A stretch of 35,144 nt of DNA from a candidate division WOR-3 bacterium. Its GTDB lineage: Bacteria > Hydrothermota > Tepidihabitantia > SM23-42. A program made the position numbers and the translations under genes. The notes beneath the pieces are model-generated. The model did not search any database and had not been told where the DNA came from. It saw only the letters and a program-made list of their open reading frames with translations. The stretch is from the NCBI GenBank assembly GCA_011052815.1, contig DRIG01000100.1, positions 1 to 35,144 of the forward strand, written 5' to 3'. Below are positions 3 to 20,379 of this stretch, one piece after another. Each line of letters starts with the position of its first letter. Position 1 is the stretch's first letter.

Positions 3-1919
3 ATGAAGATAAAGTTCTTAAGAGAGGGTGGTGTTGACACATACTATTTTACAAAAGATGTTATCAGGGAGGTGGTCTATCAGCGGATGAATCAGGTGAA
101 GTTGAGGCACTATCACCAGCGGGTAGGTGAGCAGTTATTGGTGGCTCATAAAGAGAGTATTGAGGAGCTGGCACACCATTTTTATTTAGCAGGAGATTGG
201 GAGAGGGGGTTAAAGTACAGCATGGAGGCTGCAGAGCGGGCTAAGGGTTCCTATGCAAATCAGGATGCGATAAGGTTTTACAGTTGGGCATTGGAGTGTT
301 TAGCACATGGTGAGATTAAAGGCAAAGAGACAAAAGAGGTTAATTGTATAAGAAAGCGGGCAGAGGTTTTGAAACTTTTGGGAGAGAATGAGAGGGCAGT
401 TGAAGATTTAAAGGTAGCGGTTGAGAAGGCAGAAAGGGCAGATAACAAAGAGGCGATGTCCGATTGTTTCAATCTACTTTCCAGTGTTTACGGGTCTTTA
501 TCCCGGTATAAGGATGCTGAGACTGTGGCAAGGAAGGCGGTTAGAATTGCGCAGAGTGTTGGGAACAGAAGGTATGAAGCCACAGGTCTCAACAACATCG
601 GTAGTGTTTATTACTATCTAGGTGAATATGATAAGGCATTGGATTTTTACAGACAGTCATTAGAGATAAGAAAGGAGATTGGAGACCGCCGGGGCGAAGC
701 CTTTAGTCTCAACAACATCGGCATTGTTTATAGTAATCTGGGTGAATATGAGAAGGCATTGGAGTTTCTCAAGCAGTCATTAGAGATAGACAAGGAGATT
801 GGCAACCGTCAGGGCGAAGCCGCAAGTCTCAACAACATCGGCATTGTTTATAGTAATCTGGGTGAATATGAGAAGGCATTGGATTTTTACAGACAGTCAT
901 TAAAGATAGACAAGGAGATTGGAGACCGCCGGGGCGAAGCCTTGATTCTCAACAACATCGGTAATGTTTATTACTATCTAGGCAAATATGATAAGGCATT
1001 GGATTTTTACAGACAGTCATTAAAGATAAGAAAGGAGATTGGGAATCGTCAGGGCGAAGCCGCAAGTCTCGACAACATCGGCATTGTTTATAGTGATCTG
1101 GGTGAATATGATAAGGCATTGGATTTTTACAGACAGTCATTAAAGATAGACAAGGAGATTGGAGACCGCCGGGGCGAAGCCTTGATTCTCAACAACATCG
1201 GTAATGTTTATTACTATCTAGGCAAATATGATAAGGCATTGGATTTTTACAGACAGTCATTAAAGATAAGAAAGGAGATTGGGAACCGCCGGGGCGAAGC
1301 CTTTAGTCTCAACAACATCGGCATTGTTTATAGTGCTCTGGGTGAATATGATAAGGCATTGGATTTTTACAGACAGTCATTAAAGATTAGTAAGGAAACT
1401 GGTGGCCGTGAAGGTAAGGTAGAAAGCCTTATGGGAATGGGTGATGTATGCATTGAAAAGGGAGAACTCTCTCTGGCTGAGGAGTATTATAACAAGGCGC
1501 ATCCAATCATCAAAGAGATGAATTCAAGGCCTCTACTATCCATTGTGCTTTGTCGTCGTGCAGAAATCTATTTGGGGAAGGATAGCCTTGATGAGGCAGA
1601 AAAGACTTTAGAACAGATTTTATCCCTTGCTGATGAACTGGGTTCAAAGGAGATTAGGGCCGATTTATCTTCTCTTTATGGTCGGCTCTGGACAAAAAAG
1701 AGAAACTGGGATAAGGCACGATCATCATTTAAAAAGGCAATAAGAATTTTTAAGGGATTGAAGAGAAAGTTTGACCTTGCTAAAGTTTACTATTATTACG
1801 GATTCCTTCTTAAAGAATCTGGGGATGACGCCAATGCTCAGAAATATTTTAGTGAGGCGAAGAAAATATTTGAAGAAATAGGTGCCAGAGGTTGGCTGAA
1901 GAAAATGGCAAAGTGCTAA
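3..1919 (+). CDS. TPR-repeat protein, C-terminal part (5' truncated by window edge), probably an AAA/STAND-type ATPase regulator
   Basis: The first ~90 residues (YYFTKDVIREVVYQ..., then HHFYLAGDWERGLKYSMEAAERA) resemble the region after the ATPase module in kinase- or cyclase-associated AAA/STAND regulators. The ATG at position 3 is therefore probably internal and the gene likely begins upstream; the frame is open to the window edge. Tetratricopeptide repeats follow. Residues ~197-476 are seven near-identical 40-residue units (NNIGxVYxxLGEYDKALDFY), and more diverged TPRs run to the C-terminus. TPRs form a superhelical scaffold for protein binding, so a signalling or sensing role is inferred; the effector domain is not in view. 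The stop codon lies inside the left terminal inverted repeat of the downstream IS remnant, so the native C-terminus may have been altered. TPR identity is secure, the ATPase assignment moderate. Confidence 0.8.
   Translation: MKIKFLREGGVDTYYFTKDVIREVVYQRMNQVKLRHYHQRVGEQLLVAHKESIEELAHHFYLAGDWERGLKYSMEAAERAKGSYANQDAIRFYSWALECLAHGEIKGKETKEVNCIRKRAEVLKLLGENERAVEDLKVAVEKAERADNKEAMSDCFNLLSSVYGSLSRYKDAETVARKAVRIAQSVGNRRYEATGLNNIGSVYYYLGEYDKALDFYRQSLEIRKEIGDRRGEAFSLNNIGIVYSNLGEYEKALEFLKQSLEIDKEIGNRQGEAASLNNIGIVYSNLGEYEKALDFYRQSLKIDKEIGDRRGEALILNNIGNVYYYLGKYDKALDFYRQSLKIRKEIGNRQGEAASLDNIGIVYSDLGEYDKALDFYRQSLKIDKEIGDRRGEALILNNIGNVYYYLGKYDKALDFYRQSLKIRKEIGNRRGEAFSLNNIGIVYSALGEYDKALDFYRQSLKISKETGGREGKVESLMGMGDVCIEKGELSLAEEYYNKAHPIIKEMNSRPLLSIVLCRRAEIYLGKDSLDEAEKTLEQILSLADELGSKEIRADLSSLYGRLWTKKRNWDKARSSFKKAIRIFKGLKRKFDLAKVYYYYGFLLKESGDDANAQKYFSEAKKIFEEIGARGWLKKMAKC
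591..1430 (+). repeat. Tandem 120-bp coding repeats (seven TPR units)
   Basis: The units repeat every 120 bp exactly, without indels. A 240-bp higher-order period is superimposed: 873-1045 and 1113-1285 are identical over 173 bp. This points to recent tandem duplication or gene conversion inside the TPR gene. Confidence 0.9.
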
Positions 1920-1936
1920 CTCGCATTATTCATACT
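1916..1936 (+). repeat. Left terminal inverted repeat of the IS remnant
   Basis: It starts CTAAC and ends ATTCATACT, matching the reverse complement of 2793-2813 at 20 of 21 positions. The TAA at 1917-1919 inside it is the stop codon of the upstream TPR gene. Confidence 0.8.
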
Positions 1937-2035
1937 AAATTTGGTTAGATTTGTTCAAATACAATACCAGCTTTACTTTGCACCATTTTTAGACCATCGT
2001 AAAATTTAACACTCTGTTTTAAAAAAGCATTAAAA

Positions 2036-2091
2036 AAAACCTCCTGATGTGTATACTACATTTATGAATATAAATAACACCAGGAGGTTTT
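2036..2091 (+). promoter_or_regulatory. Hairpin sequestering the transposase ribosome-binding site
   Basis: AAAACCTCCTG (2036-2046) is perfectly complementary to CAGGAGGTTTT (2081-2091), which contains the Shine-Dalgarno sequence of the ORF starting at 2093. GTGT (2049-2052) and ACAC (2077-2080) extend the stem past a 2-nt bulge. Transcripts entering from outside would fold and hide the site, whereas a transcript starting inside the loop would leave it free. Insertion sequences are known to use such structures to prevent expression from neighbouring promoters. Confidence 0.7.
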
Positions 2092-2092
2092 A

Positions 2093-2601
2093 ATGACTGA
2101 TAATTATACTCAAATTTCACTCTCATTTCAAGAGGGTAAAATCGTTACCATCAATTTTAATGGGGGCAATATTAGTTCTGATGCTGGTCTCTTACTAATC
2201 CGTGAATACGACAAAAAAATAAATTTCACGCCAAAAGTTGCCCAGCTACTTATTGATAAACGGACTTCCTATTTGGTTGATTATAAACTTATTGATCTTA
2301 TTCGGCAAAGACTTTACGGAATTATTGCTGGTTATGAAAATGCTAATGATGCGCGATATTTGCGGCTCGACCATTATACTACTCGGGCAAAGCGGCACGG
2401 GCGTGGTGGGATTGATTATCTTATTGGTTTGCCATGGAACCGATGTGCTTAAGGGACCGAATTGGCTCGGGCAACGATTGAGACGATTCGGCTTTAGTGA
2501 AGGAGAGCGTGCGTCGGCTCTGGTTTCATCTATCATCAGGTTGGCCATTTCGATCAATATTTATTCAAGTCTGTAATAATGTTTGTTTTGATACCAGTTA
2601 A
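2093..2601 (+). pseudogene. IS1380-family transposase, internally deleted and frameshifted
   Basis: The ORF 2093-2452 gives an IS1380-type N-terminus (NFNGGNISSDAGLLLIREYD, then DLIRQRLYGIIAGYENANDARYLRLDH). After about residue 92 the expected catalytic region is missing. Just past the TAA at 2450-2452 the same frame reads GTELARATIETIRL. After a further stop and frame change, ~2502-2601 reads RLWFHLSSGWPFRSIFIQVCNNV. Both resemble the C-terminal end of these transposases. The gene is thus two ends joined by a large deletion, with at least two more disruptions. The family call rests on motif memory, not a search. Confidence 0.75.
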
Positions 2602-2792
2602 GTGGTAATTTTCTTCTGCTTTCACATCGGTTTTTTCTCACCGATTTCTGGGTTGGGAGAGGTCTATTCAAATTTTGCAAAATACGATATTTTTAATCTA
2701 AAATCAGACAACAAATTTCAAAGTAAAGAACACACTTCTGATAAACTATTAAAAAATTCTACTTTGGAGGAAAAAATCTAAATTTTAAAATC

Positions 2793-2813
2793 AGTATGAA
2801 TAATGCGGGTTAG
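2793..2813 (-). repeat. Right terminal inverted repeat of the IS remnant
   Basis: Reverse complement of the left repeat with one mismatch at the sixth base. Its outer 4 bp (2810-2813) overlap the end of the 175-bp repeat copy 1. Confidence 0.8.
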
Positions 2814-2984
2814 ACCAGTGATAATCTTCCGCCCCCATCTTTAACGATGGGAGCGGGGCTGAACAAATTTTATAAATTTTAAATAGAAATAACTTTCCTG
2901 ATTTAGTAAAAACTGCACAAAATTTACAAGGTAGACCTTCACAGCCTAATGATATTCGGATTTTTTTAATTGTCAACTTACTGT
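2810..2984 (-). repeat. 175-bp dispersed repeat, copy 1
   Basis: Read on the minus strand it matches 16539-16714 from ACAGTAAGTTGAC to GGTCTAA with only a handful of differences (~96% identity). It carries a promoter-like TTGACA-N16-TATCAT (2949-2976, minus) and a strong hairpin with arms CCGCTCCCATC and GATGGGGGCGG. The loop is GTTAAA here but TTCAACC in copy 2. The promoter points toward the IS remnant. With the IS end, it fills the gene-free stretch 2602-3010, where nothing else was recognised. Confidence 0.85.
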
Positions 2985-3010
2985 AGTGGATGCAAAAAAT
3001 CAGTCAGTCT

Positions 3011-15886: not shown

Positions 15887-16497
15887 GACACGGTAGAAGA
15901 GTTAAAAAATTAGGAAGGAAAAAAGAGCATCGCCTTGCGTTGCTTAAAAATTTATGCCGAGCGTTATTCATATATGAAAAGATTGAAACCACACTGCAGA
16001 AGGCAAAAGAAGCCCGAAGACTGGCTGAACATCTGATTGAATTCGCCAAAAAGAATGACCTTGCCGCAAAGAGACGAATCTACCGATTCATTCCCGACCA
16101 CAAACTGGTCAAAATAATCTGTGATGAGATCGGTCCGAGATTCAGTGAACGACAGGGCGGTTACACCCGAATTTACCGCCTGGGACCGAGACTCGGTGAT
16201 GGTGCGGAAATGGCGATACTGGAACTCGTTGAACAGAGTGAACCTGATGCCATCGATGCTCGGCGGAAATTAATTGAACGCCGGGCTCTTGTTGAAGAAA
16301 AACCGAAAAAAGAGAAGAAGAAGAAAGAAAAACCGAAAAAAGAGAAAAAAGAGAAGAAAGAGAAAAAGACCGAAAAGCCGAAAGAAAAGAAAGAGAAAAA
16401 AGAAAAGAAGCGCCCGAAAAAGAAAGAAGCAAAGAAAAAGGCGAAAAGAGTTAAAAAGAAAGCAAAGGCGAAAAAGAAGAAAAAACGCAAGAAGTAA
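15883..16497 (+). CDS. rplQ: 50S ribosomal protein L17 with long lysine-rich C-terminal extension
   Basis: Residues 1-~120 are a standard L17 (MRHGRRVKKLGRKKEHRLALLKNLCRALFIYEKIETTLQKAKEARRLAEHLI ... RIYRLGPRLGDGAEMAILELVE). L17 lies at the peptide exit tunnel. About 65 extra residues made almost only of Lys and Glu follow (from ~139 to 204), ending in a run of Lys and Arg. The DNA here is nearly pure A/G on the plus strand. Bacterial L17 is usually 115-150 residues, so the tail is a lineage-specific addition, probably disordered and RNA-binding. Confidence 0.95.
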   Translation: MRHGRRVKKLGRKKEHRLALLKNLCRALFIYEKIETTLQKAKEARRLAEHLIEFAKKNDLAAKRRIYRFIPDHKLVKIICDEIGPRFSERQGGYTRIYRLGPRLGDGAEMAILELVEQSEPDAIDARRKLIERRALVEEKPKKEKKKKEKPKKEKKEKKEKKTEKPKEKKEKKEKKRPKKKEAKKKAKRVKKKAKAKKKKKRKK

Positions 16498-16538
16498 CAC
16501 CGCGAATATCCGTTGACTCCCTCTATTTTTTTGTCTTA

Positions 16539-16714
16539 ACAGTAAGTTGACAATTAAAAAAATCCGAATATCATTAGGCTGTGAAGGTCTACCTTGTAAA
16601 TTTTGTGCAGTTTTTACTAAATCAGGAAAGTTATTTCTATTTAAAATTTATAAGATTTGTTCAGCACCGCTCCCATCTTCAACCGATGGGGGCGGAAGAT
16701 TATCATTGGTCTAA
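16539..16714 (+). repeat. 175-bp dispersed repeat, copy 2
   Basis: Matches 2810-2984 in inverted orientation (~96% identical, one 1-nt length difference, in the hairpin loop). From 5' to 3' it holds TTGACA-N16-TATCAT, a ~100-nt conserved stretch and the CCGCTCCCATC/GATGGGGGCGG hairpin (16668-16696 region). It ends 27 bp before the start of the downstream gene. It thus looks like the promoter and untranslated leader of the two-gene unit that follows. No transposase is encoded. Confidence 0.85.
16547..16574 (+). promoter_or_regulatory. Promoter carried by repeat copy 2
   Basis: TTGACA (16547-16552), 16-bp spacer, TATCAT (16569-16574). The same boxes are present in copy 1 on the minus strand (2976-2949). 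It is the best promoter candidate for the propeller-amidase unit. Confidence 0.6.
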
Positions 16715-16742
16715 AATAGTAAAACCAACAAAGGAGGAGTGA
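16581..16742 (+). other. Possible leaderless 53-codon leader ORF within repeat copy 2
   Basis: A GTG lies 6 nt after the -10 box, the spacing seen at the leaderless genes in this window. The frame is open for 53 codons to a TGA (16740-16742) sharing its A with the ATG at 16742 of the next gene. In copy 1 the same frame stops after about 33 codons because of the loop difference. The deduced peptide resembles nothing I recognise. It may be a leader peptide or chance. Confidence 0.25.
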
Positions 16743-17635
16743 TGATTAAGAAGATAATAACAATAATGATAGTAAGCATTTTACCTCTACTTGCCCAGGA
16801 AGGTTTCTTAGAGGGAGTAAGGGCAGAGGATTTGATGCTGGATAGAATTGAAGCAGTGCCGGTTGAAACTGCAAAAGAGATTGAAAATAGTGGTTTTGAT
16901 TACTGGTTTGAGCCAGTCCTGTCCGTTGCTTATTCACCCAATACTACATTGATTGCTGAGGAACGTACTGAAAAACCTGGGGGAAGAATAATCGGCGTAT
17001 GGATTGTGGATTCTGCGACAAATACAGAAAAAAGGATTATAGAAGGCATAGCTTATGACTTAAAGTGGTCTGCTGATGGTAAATTCTTGGCCTTTAGGAA
17101 AATGGTGCCCAAAAAAGAACTTTTCCATGGAAGACGAGTTTATGGCGACGGTGGTCTCTGGTTATATAATGTTGAAACCGATGAGATGCAACCAGTCCCT
17201 TTAGGTTCCTATTTTGAGTGGTCTCCACAAGGAAATTATCTGGCGGGTAAACATCTAGATTCAACAGGTTTATGGGCGCTTGCTATTTATAACGCTGAAA
17301 GAGAAGAGACAAAAGTACTTGATAGAGTATTGTTCTTCGAACCTTGGAATTTTTGCTGGTCTCCTGATGGCGAAATGCTAACATATGTTGTTGCTACAAA
17401 AACATCTGGTCATATTGAATGTTCACCAATTGAATCTGAAGTTTTCATAATTAATCGAGATGGTACTGGAAAAACTCAAATTACCTATACCATGCAACCT
17501 GAAATTCTTGTAAAATGGCTACCTGATGGTAAAAGTATTATGGTGGAAAGATTTAAAGAAATGCCAGATCCTGTAACCGGTGGTAGTGATACAGAAATTG
17601 TTATCTTGAAACTTAAAAAGAGGAGGCGAAAATGA
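16742..17635 (+). CDS. Secreted TolB/WD40-like beta-propeller protein
   Basis: 297 residues starting at the ATG at 16742 (GTG at 16739 is the alternative), with AAGGAGG 5 nt upstream. The N-terminus IKKIITIMIVSILPLLAQ is a likely signal peptide. PD40-type blades are recognisable by W-S-x-D/Q-G-x-x-L/M: LKWSADGKFLAF, FEWSPQGNYLAG, FCWSPDGEMLTYV and VKWLPDGKSIMVE. The fold is as in TolB, with no catalytic residues, so it probably binds protein or cell-envelope ligands. It overlaps the amidase gene by 4 bp, arguing for a shared envelope role. Codons are richer in A/T than in the ribosomal genes just upstream. Confidence 0.75.
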   Translation: MIKKIITIMIVSILPLLAQEGFLEGVRAEDLMLDRIEAVPVETAKEIENSGFDYWFEPVLSVAYSPNTTLIAEERTEKPGGRIIGVWIVDSATNTEKRIIEGIAYDLKWSADGKFLAFRKMVPKKELFHGRRVYGDGGLWLYNVETDEMQPVPLGSYFEWSPQGNYLAGKHLDSTGLWALAIYNAEREETKVLDRVLFFEPWNFCWSPDGEMLTYVVATKTSGHIECSPIESEVFIINRDGTGKTQITYTMQPEILVKWLPDGKSIMVERFKEMPDPVTGGSDTEIVILKLKKRRRK

Positions 17636-20379
17636 GAAGGCGTCTTATTTTCTTACAATTATTTACCTGCTTGTTATTTGCTGGTCAAGTAGATATATGT
17701 ATTGACCCAGGTCATGGAGGTAAATGGCCAGATGGTGACCCAGGTGTAGTTAACGAAAGTCACGGGCCGTATCCTGATGGACCATTTGAAAGCGATTTTA
17801 ACAAATATATTGCCTGGTCAATGGAAATGGATTTAGTGTGGGGGTTAGGCTATTCTATCTCAATGACCAGGACAGGTGATGAGAATCCATCACTTGAAGA
17901 AAGAGTCAAAATGGCAAATGGTGAGATTCCCAATCATTATACTGGCCAAAAAGACACATGTCAATTATTTGTGAGTGTTCATAATGATGGTCCTCCTGAT
18001 AAGGATAGCACAATACACGGCACTAAAACGTACTATTACAGAACTGCAGATGAAACATTTGCTGGTTTAGTACATTCTAACATGTTTTATTATATTTCTA
18101 ATTTTCCTTTTGCAAATGATATGGGGGTTCGACGAGCTGAACTTCATGTGCTTATAAAAACTAAAATGCCTGCTGTTCTAACGGAATCTGCATACGTTAC
18201 TCATGACATTCATCCAAATGCACAATGGTTTCAACTGAAAGACAATCACCAATCATTTAAGGATAAGATCGCCTGGGGAATAGATGATGGAATTGATGCT
18301 TATTATAAATTCCCAAGTCCCAGATGGCTGAGAATATTGTGGATGATGCAAAAATCAAGGTCAGTTAATCTTGAGTGGGGTTCTTGTCCTGTTAGTGTAA
18401 CAGGTTATAATATTTATCGGCGAACTTATCCTGATGATAATTATGTTTTGATTGAAAACAACTTTGCTGAGACAATCTATTCTGACAACAGTGTCTCTGC
18501 AGGTGGTGCTTATTCTTATTATGTAAAAGGTGTAAGAAGTGGCGGTCAAGAAGGGAATCGATCTGAGATTGCTACAGTTCAAGTTCCCCCATTTTCTTCG
18601 AACTTTTCGAGAGCAACCGGAGTGAATAATGCCAGAAGGATATTATTTGATGACGATGGTATTTCGCATCTTACCTGGACAAATAAGCTCGAAAATGAGG
18701 AATTAAGTGAAGATGTATGGTATTCCAAGAGTACAGATTATGGTAGTGATTGGTCAATAGGACAAAAATCTGATTATGGTTGGCAACCAACGATAGACTT
18801 TAATTCATCCGAGGAAGAAAACTTCTGCTATATGAGTACTCTGGGTTTGCCAGATTCTGGTGCTAGTGATACTATGATTTATACAGTGAATTATGCCTAT
18901 CGTGAAAATGGCTTCTGGTATTCTGAAGTGCTTTATGATACGCCTGATTCCATTTTATCGGTCTCTTTTGCGATTGATCCATTGGATACCGGATGGGTGG
19001 TATTTAACACCCTGGATGATGCCGGCAACAATCGATTAAAGATTGGTCAGTTTTATACCCAGGAAATGCCGGAGAGTCTTGAGAATGTTATTGTATTAGA
19101 TACATATTCGTCATCAGGAGTTGGGGCTGTAGCGGTGCGGTCTTCAGACAGAAGTATTTGGTTGGTTTATGAGAAAAATGGTAATATAGAATGTAAATGG
19201 CGTAGTAATACAGGAGTCTGGCATAACCTTCACATTCAGAATGAAGGAAGACTACCGTCGGTTTCTATAGCTGGTGATTTAATCTACTTTATCTGGGAAA
19301 AATTCTGGAGTGAAGTTGAGAAGAAAGAAATTCAGACTAACTATACCTTAAATGGATTGTTCCTATCTGCCCCACAGACGATTGCTTTAGTTCACAGTTC
19401 TTATAACTATCCCTATCTCGAAAATGGTTCAATTGCGGTGTGGTCGGATTTTCAGAATAATCAGTGGGATATTTATGCGAGCGAGCGTAATGAGCTCGGT
19501 GGTTGGACAACTCCTCAGAACATAAGCCAATCAGGAGTTGATTCGAAATATCCTCAGGTGGCAATGTATCAGACTGTTTCTCAAACAAATATTCTGTATC
19601 TTTGGACCGAAGGAAATTCTACCCCTTACGAGGTAAAAATATATCCTACTACTACATTACGCTCAAGAGCGCTTCCACTTTACGCTTTTAATTTAGGTAA
19701 ACGAGAAACATCTGTTTTCAACACTCAGCGGCTTGGATATATTGCTTATGGTGAAGGTCCGGAGAAAAGCGTGGATTACGACACTTCTTTCCTCAGTTAC
19801 AAAATCACTGGTCTTGATTCCACAAAGAGCTATCATCTTGGTTTGTGTTTTTATCAAGACGAAATGAGTAATAGCTGGAATCAGGAGATAGAAATTGATG
19901 ATTTTCTTATTGATAGAGTAGAAATTCCGCGAAAGACCGTTGTTTTCAAAAAGATTATTCTTTCGAAAGAATTACTCAAGGATGGAGTGATTAACTTGCT
20001 TATCAAGAGGTCGCCGAAAGTGGTTTGCAGTGCTTTAGCACTTTGGGAATTTTCAAAAGAAGATCGGAATATGACTTCGGTTAAAGAACTTAACAGCAAT
20101 GCATTACGGGAATTCAATACATATGCTTCACCAAATCCGTCAAAGAAGAGAATACGATTCGATTGCCAATTGCCTGAACCTGGCGAGATTAGGATCAAGA
20201 TTTATACAGCGACTGGTCGGTTGGTGCGGGAAATAGGGGGCTATAGATCTGCTGGCTCGCATACGATAACCTGGAATGGAAAGGACAATTTGGGACGCGA
20301 TATCTCAACCGGAATCTATTTCTATCGTGCTGAGTTGAAGAATAGAGTAAAGACGGGTAAATTGATTCTTATACGATAG
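17632..20379 (+). CDS. Multidomain N-acetylmuramoyl-L-alanine amidase with FN3, sialidase-like repeats and FlgD-like tail
   Basis: Signal peptide at 1-18. Amidase_3 domain ~20-232: zinc ligands H28 (DPGHGG), E53 and H117 (SVHND) and catalytic E185 (PAVLTESAYVTH). It cleaves the bond between MurNAc and the stem peptide. Residues ~235-320 form a fibronectin-III-like module (SRSVNLEWGSCPVSVTGYNIYR). Residues ~325-660 contain BNR/propeller-like strands (GISHLTWTNK, DVWYSKSTDYGSDWS, SIWLVYEKNGNIE). The C-terminal ~85 residues (EPGEIRIKIYTATGRLVREI ... STGIYFYRAELKNRVKTGKLILIR) form the FlgD-like secretion tail. At 915 residues it is far longer than housekeeping amidases. Surface or secreted cell-wall remodelling, or attack on other cells, is inferred. 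Confidence 0.85.
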   Translation: MRRRLIFLQLFTCLLFAGQVDICIDPGHGGKWPDGDPGVVNESHGPYPDGPFESDFNKYIAWSMEMDLVWGLGYSISMTRTGDENPSLEERVKMANGEIPNHYTGQKDTCQLFVSVHNDGPPDKDSTIHGTKTYYYRTADETFAGLVHSNMFYYISNFPFANDMGVRRAELHVLIKTKMPAVLTESAYVTHDIHPNAQWFQLKDNHQSFKDKIAWGIDDGIDAYYKFPSPRWLRILWMMQKSRSVNLEWGSCPVSVTGYNIYRRTYPDDNYVLIENNFAETIYSDNSVSAGGAYSYYVKGVRSGGQEGNRSEIATVQVPPFSSNFSRATGVNNARRILFDDDGISHLTWTNKLENEELSEDVWYSKSTDYGSDWSIGQKSDYGWQPTIDFNSSEEENFCYMSTLGLPDSGASDTMIYTVNYAYRENGFWYSEVLYDTPDSILSVSFAIDPLDTGWVVFNTLDDAGNNRLKIGQFYTQEMPESLENVIVLDTYSSSGVGAVAVRSSDRSIWLVYEKNGNIECKWRSNTGVWHNLHIQNEGRLPSVSIAGDLIYFIWEKFWSEVEKKEIQTNYTLNGLFLSAPQTIALVHSSYNYPYLENGSIAVWSDFQNNQWDIYASERNELGGWTTPQNISQSGVDSKYPQVAMYQTVSQTNILYLWTEGNSTPYEVKIYPTTTLRSRALPLYAFNLGKRETSVFNTQRLGYIAYGEGPEKSVDYDTSFLSYKITGLDSTKSYHLGLCFYQDEMSNSWNQEIEIDDFLIDRVEIPRKTVVFKKIILSKELLKDGVINLLIKRSPKVVCSALALWEFSKEDRNMTSVKELNSNALREFNTYASPNPSKKRIRFDCQLPEPGEIRIKIYTATGRLVREIGGYRSAGSHTITWNGKDNLGRDISTGIYFYRAELKNRVKTGKLILIR

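Follow-up and report, generated by a model that had tools for sequence, protein, structure and literature searches.

Repeat copies and their gene surroundings

The window analysed here is one whole contig (C100, 35,144 nucleotides) of a 2.39-Mb genome comprising 111 contigs. Among its features are a TPR-repeat gene, a decayed IS1380-family element, lipA, a ribosomal operon, rplQ and a gene pair for a PD40/TolB-like beta-propeller protein and an N-acetylmuramoyl-L-alanine amidase, together with two copies of a ~176-nt repeat that lie ~13.5 kb apart (Table 1). The copies are 96% identical, and TTGACA-N16-TATCAT is present in both; their first ~110 bases are the same and all differences are confined to the last third.

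Table 1. Coordinates of the repeat copies, the insertion element and the associated genes in the window
Feature	Position	Strand	Remarks
Left 5 bases, proposed target duplication	1912..1916	+	AGTGC
Decayed IS1380-family element	1917..2812	+	inverted ends; transposase fragment; same ends in three relatives
Left inverted repeat	1917..1936	+	TAACTCGCATTATTCATACT
IS1380 transposase N-terminal fragment	2093..2452	+	119 aa; PF13701, NF033539
Right inverted repeat	2793..2812	-	TAACCCGCATTATTCATACT (minus-strand reading)
Copy 1, 172-bp leader fragment carried with the IS (proposed)	2813..2984	-	reported as 2810-2984; 2810-2812 are the IS end
Hairpin, copy 1	2829..2856	-	loop GTTAAA
Right 5 bases, proposed target duplication	2985..2989	+	AGTGG (4 of 5 identical)
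Copy 2 (presumed native locus), control region of the PD40/amidase pair (promoter, 5' leader)	16539..16714	+	
Promoter-like TTGACA-N16-TATCAT	16547..16574	+	11/12 consensus matches
Hairpin, copy 2	16667..16695	+	11 pairs, loop TTCAACC
Start of the PD40/TolB-like gene: AGGAGG (Shine-Dalgarno) region and ATG at 16742	16732..16744	+	read from sequence
Gene for a beta-propeller (PD40/TolB-like) protein, predicted to be driven by copy 2	16739..17635	+	
N-acetylmuramoyl-L-alanine amidase gene (second of the pair; product with a type IX-type sorting tail)	17632..20379	+	

The sequence-only reading had described a dispersed repeat and proposed a search of the genome and its relatives as well as a check of the genes that follow each copy. 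Both copies are real, but they are the only two in the genome and both lie inside the window. A search of 146 further genomes of the phylum, including 22 from the same family, gave no significant match; the weak matches of 24-32 nt are at the chance level. Nor was the repeat found among GTDB contigs, phages, plasmids and viral contigs: an exact 17-mer scan of the GTDB contigs returned 16 matches of 17-29 nt at most, again the chance level, and the viral scans gave nothing homologous. A sequence that the genome contains just twice, and that was found in no other collection searched, is a poor fit to a repeat family. A protein-coding role was considered and rejected, since the frame at 16547-16714, open for 55 codons in copy 2, is frame-shifted in copy 1; its protein reading has no relative among 84,980 genomes.

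Copy 2 is located between rplQ and the PD40/amidase pair. The promoter-like site named in the sequence-only reading is confirmed here with its 16-nt spacer, and is followed by a leader of ~160 nt, the Shine-Dalgarno sequence AAAGGAGG and the ATG, so that the leader is complete. Its proposal of a regulatory leader for an envelope gene pair thus fits copy 2, where the predicted promoter, leader and Shine-Dalgarno sequence precede the propeller and amidase genes. TTGAC-type promoter-like sites also occur shortly after rplQ in several to many relatives, and after lipA in several. Most likely, the 175-base repeat is the control region of one gene pair and does not constitute a separate mobile or regulatory family.

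Two neighbours of copy 2 are themselves unusual. The PD40 gene, situated between rplQ and a PAS-HD gene, has weak matches only in the family and no close counterpart; together with the amidase gene (16739-20379), it gives the impression of having been inserted locally or of evolving rapidly. In rplQ (16260-16497 in the window), a lysine/glutamate-rich C-terminal tail extends ~60 or more residues beyond the part common to most relatives, in most of which the matches stop near residue 134-147.

Copy 1 lies ~26 nt past the lipA stop. No gene lies downstream of its promoter in the promoter's direction, which would read into antisense IS sequence; under the account favoured below, copy 1 would be an orphaned piece of promoter and leader. 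An origin through inversion of the intervening 13.5 kb, duplicating the breakpoints, was rejected: the order lipA (minus strand), ribosomal operon (plus strand), pmbA-like pair is conserved in the family and ancestral, so the segment between the copies has not been inverted. Homology to the region downstream of lipA in relatives was likewise rejected, the short matches in G005 and G022 being confined to the promoter-like site.

The insertion element beside copy 1

The IS1380-family remnant had been missed by the sequence-only reading; copy 1 abuts its terminal inverted repeat. Its fragment of an IS1380-type DDE transposase matches PF13701 at 80.6 bits (E 9.5e-23, cut-off 34.7) and NF033539 at 61.5 bits (E 5.4e-17), the latter below the full-length cut-off of 180 because the gene is truncated. 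The inverted repeats are 89% complementary over the arms 1916-1942 and 2787-2813. An identical end sequence is present in three other genomes of the family (G001, G013 and G015), and the DNA similarity of the relatives' elements to the window IS mostly starts at base 1917. A 279-bp derivative with these ends, located in L128, has AGATT on both sides, a perfect 5-bp duplication, which supports both the ends TAACC...GGTTA and a 5-bp duplication. Another relative of the IS with two ends (L122) is without a clear duplication, so a missing duplication around the window IS alone is weaker evidence than it appears.

Several short MITE-like elements (~210-280 bp) with IS1380-type ends and no transposase were noted as well (L124:4861-5075, L126:1728-1986, L127:4679-4957 and L128:175-452); those of L124-L126 contain an internal TCATTGCGAGGGAGTGAAACGACCGAAGCAATCT-type repeat. 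In the window IS, a 15-bp inverted repeat, AAAACCTCCTGATGT/ACACCAGGAGGTTTT (2036-2091), lies just before the transposase start and includes its Shine-Dalgarno sequence. Such an inverted repeat could hide the ribosome-binding site of the transposase; a similar one is found in L123.

Copy 1 starts at the right end of the IS, with the three bases TAA common to both. The 172 bp beyond the true right end (2813-2984) also occur at 16539-16711 without the IS, while the left end is kept. Members of the IS1380 family generate target duplications of 4-5 bp (PMC12116815, PMC12589106). Around the IS alone, the flanks are AGTGC and GACCA and none of the five bases is duplicated. Around the IS together with copy 1 (1917-2984), the flanks are AGTGC and AGTGG and four of five are identical, an agreement that two random places would reach in 1.9% of cases. 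The outer edge of this composite was set independently, where homology to copy 2 stops, and was not chosen to fit. The missing duplication around the IS alone would be explained if the transposed unit reaches to 2984, or if a deletion came after insertion.

On the left side, the first three bases of the IS are also the stop codon of the TPR-repeat gene (3-1919 in the window), which was probably cut short by the insertion. This gene contains ~7 copies of a 120-bp tandem DNA repeat that are 79-84% alike. When the flanks are joined at one AGTG, the gene gains ~16 codons and its stop overlaps the end of lipA, which makes the joined sequence a plausible empty site.

Origin of copy 1

The most economical account, and one that we consider probable, is a one-ended transposition of leader DNA by the IS1380-family element. 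A precedent is ISEcp1, which transposes with adjacent DNA and makes 5-bp duplications; its substitute right ends are only weakly similar to the true end and may have as few as 3 bases in common with it (PMC12116815, PMC12589106). On this view, the repeat supplies the PD40/amidase pair, 3' of rplQ, with its promoter and 5' leader (copy 2), and an IS1380-family element would formerly have been inserted in this leader at the TAA of 16712-16714. In a later jump, the transposase may have used the regular left inverted repeat but, in place of the true right end, a substitute lying beyond it, ACAGTAAG..., that now ends at 2984, as ISEcp1 does. The jump would have carried 172 bp of adjoining leader to the 3' side of lipA and duplicated the target bases AGTGN, after which the transposase would have decayed. 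Along with the jump itself, we infer that it ran from copy 2 towards copy 1, and that copy 2 once contained an IS which was later lost.

Three observations bear on this account from the other side. The duplication is 4/5 rather than 5/5; copy 2 now lacks an IS, which would have to have been lost; and the similarity of the substitute right end to the true one is at the chance level, which is allowed, yet gives no support. The main rival is that the leader was first duplicated 3' of lipA by another route, perhaps with its gene, and that an IS1380 element later inserted into that copy at a TAA and the part beyond was deleted, the edge of the repeat being merely the insertion point. Such a history explains the abutment too, and agrees with the several relatives in which a promoter-like site 3' of lipA serves the next gene, as well as with the mismatch of AGTGC before the IS and GACCA after it, as expected after a deletion. 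We regard it as a possible but rather unlikely course of events, given that it takes three events (duplication, insertion and deletion) where a single jump would do, and leaves the AGTG on either outer edge of the composite unaccounted for. Nor is there a continuation of copy 2 on the far side of the IS.

The sequence-only reading had named as counter-evidence the discovery that a known transposon has the repeat for its tail. This comes close to the situation of copy 1, which lies directly against an IS1380-family end, the two looking like one transposed unit. Alternatively, the 176 bp could be an independent, small mobile element without a transposase, MITE-like or IS200/IS605-like with an end hairpin, next to which the IS1380 element came to lie by chance. 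Each copy does follow a gene in that gene's direction and after a T run, with a strong hairpin close to one end. This option is nevertheless improbable: there are two copies only, no terminal inverted repeats were seen, no relatives were found in any collection searched, and a coincidence is needed for its end to meet the IS end. The IS200/IS605-like end hairpin suggested from the sequence is not supported; elements of that kind have hairpins near both ends and rely on a Y1 (HUH) transposase in the genome, and one strong hairpin only is seen here.

The hairpin as a candidate RNA structure

The 11-bp stem of the sequence-only reading is borne out in both copies: CCGCTCCCATC/GATGGGGGCGG form 11 pairs, including one G-T wobble, around a loop of 7 nt in copy 2 and 6 nt in copy 1. 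With 8 G-C pairs (script count), it ranks first among all window stems of at least 10 pairs, while stems in ten block shuffles of the window reached at most 6. Folding energies of the two stems are -20.3 and -21.8 kcal/mol. The hairpin itself exists and stands out within the window, but that selection acts on it is unproven. Outside the loop and arms, the copies differ by 3 substitutions in ~147 nt or more, which corresponds to ~0.4 expected changes in the 22 arm bases. The observed absence of arm changes, previously taken as a sign of selection, is expected at this divergence even without it and is uninformative.

The loops do differ by several letters, as the description "hypervariable" implied; this is a single comparison, and one inversion plus two changes suffice for it. 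Palindromes are known to mutate in this way, with the loop inverted while the perfect inverted arms around it stay in place. TTCAACC and GTTAAA are separated by an edit distance of 2 as reverse complements and of 4 directly, and a random 6-mer matches the former closeness in 1.7% of cases. One loop inversion together with two small changes is thus a likely cause of the difference.

A reading of the repeat as a regulatory RNA or attenuator, selected and working at two loci, would agree with the hairpin's first rank in G-C pairs, with the identical arms and with a leader folding z-score of -2.3. We consider this reading highly improbable. Rfam 15 at the gathering score gave no match in the window, and no terminator-like site was found at 16450-16800, where no T run follows the stem as it would in an intrinsic terminator or attenuator. 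Copy 1 has no gene downstream, and the identity of the arms needs no selection. The related proposals of a selected RNA or single-stranded DNA structure, or of a small RNA, are not supported either; two copies with identical arms cannot show covariation. In copy 2, the hairpin would belong to the pair's 5' untranslated region, where a role in mRNA stabilisation is a guess. A broader scheme, in which the IS1380-family elements of this lineage spread promoter/leader segments by one-ended transposition and so rewire genes, the hairpin serving as a preferred end or structural aid, seems to us highly improbable. As a caution, a striking hairpin in a sequence that occurs twice does not by itself point to an RNA family.

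Compared with known systems, the repeat resembles IS200/IS605-type end hairpins and REP-type repeats in having a G-C-rich hairpin in repeated intergenic sequence. It differs from them in that it occurs twice only, once beside a different transposon, and has a strong hairpin near one end only. The IS1380-family elements and deletion derivatives of G001, G013 and G015, from the same bacterial family, have the TAACCCGCATTATTCATACT ends, and the G001 element is 69-83% identical in DNA to the window IS over much of its length. Unlike the window IS, none of those examined has the 176-bp repeat alongside. The closest parallel is offered by the ISEcp1 (ISEc9) transposition units of the IS1380 family, which likewise combine an IS1380-type transposase and inverted ends with adjacent DNA carried on the right-end side, and an outer edge without a true inverted repeat; they also have a 5-bp duplication around the composite, which the proposed one here approaches. 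In contrast to these units, the window composite has a decayed IS, 172 bp of promoter/leader as cargo in place of a resistance gene, a match of 4/5 in the proposed duplication and a host of another lineage. The proposed event is of a known kind, in an uncommon and poorly studied bacterium. If the one-ended jump is correct, the ISEcp1-like uptake of adjacent sequence, familiar mainly from resistance plasmids, would extend to a natural chromosome in a little-studied lineage, and the cargo would be a promoter.
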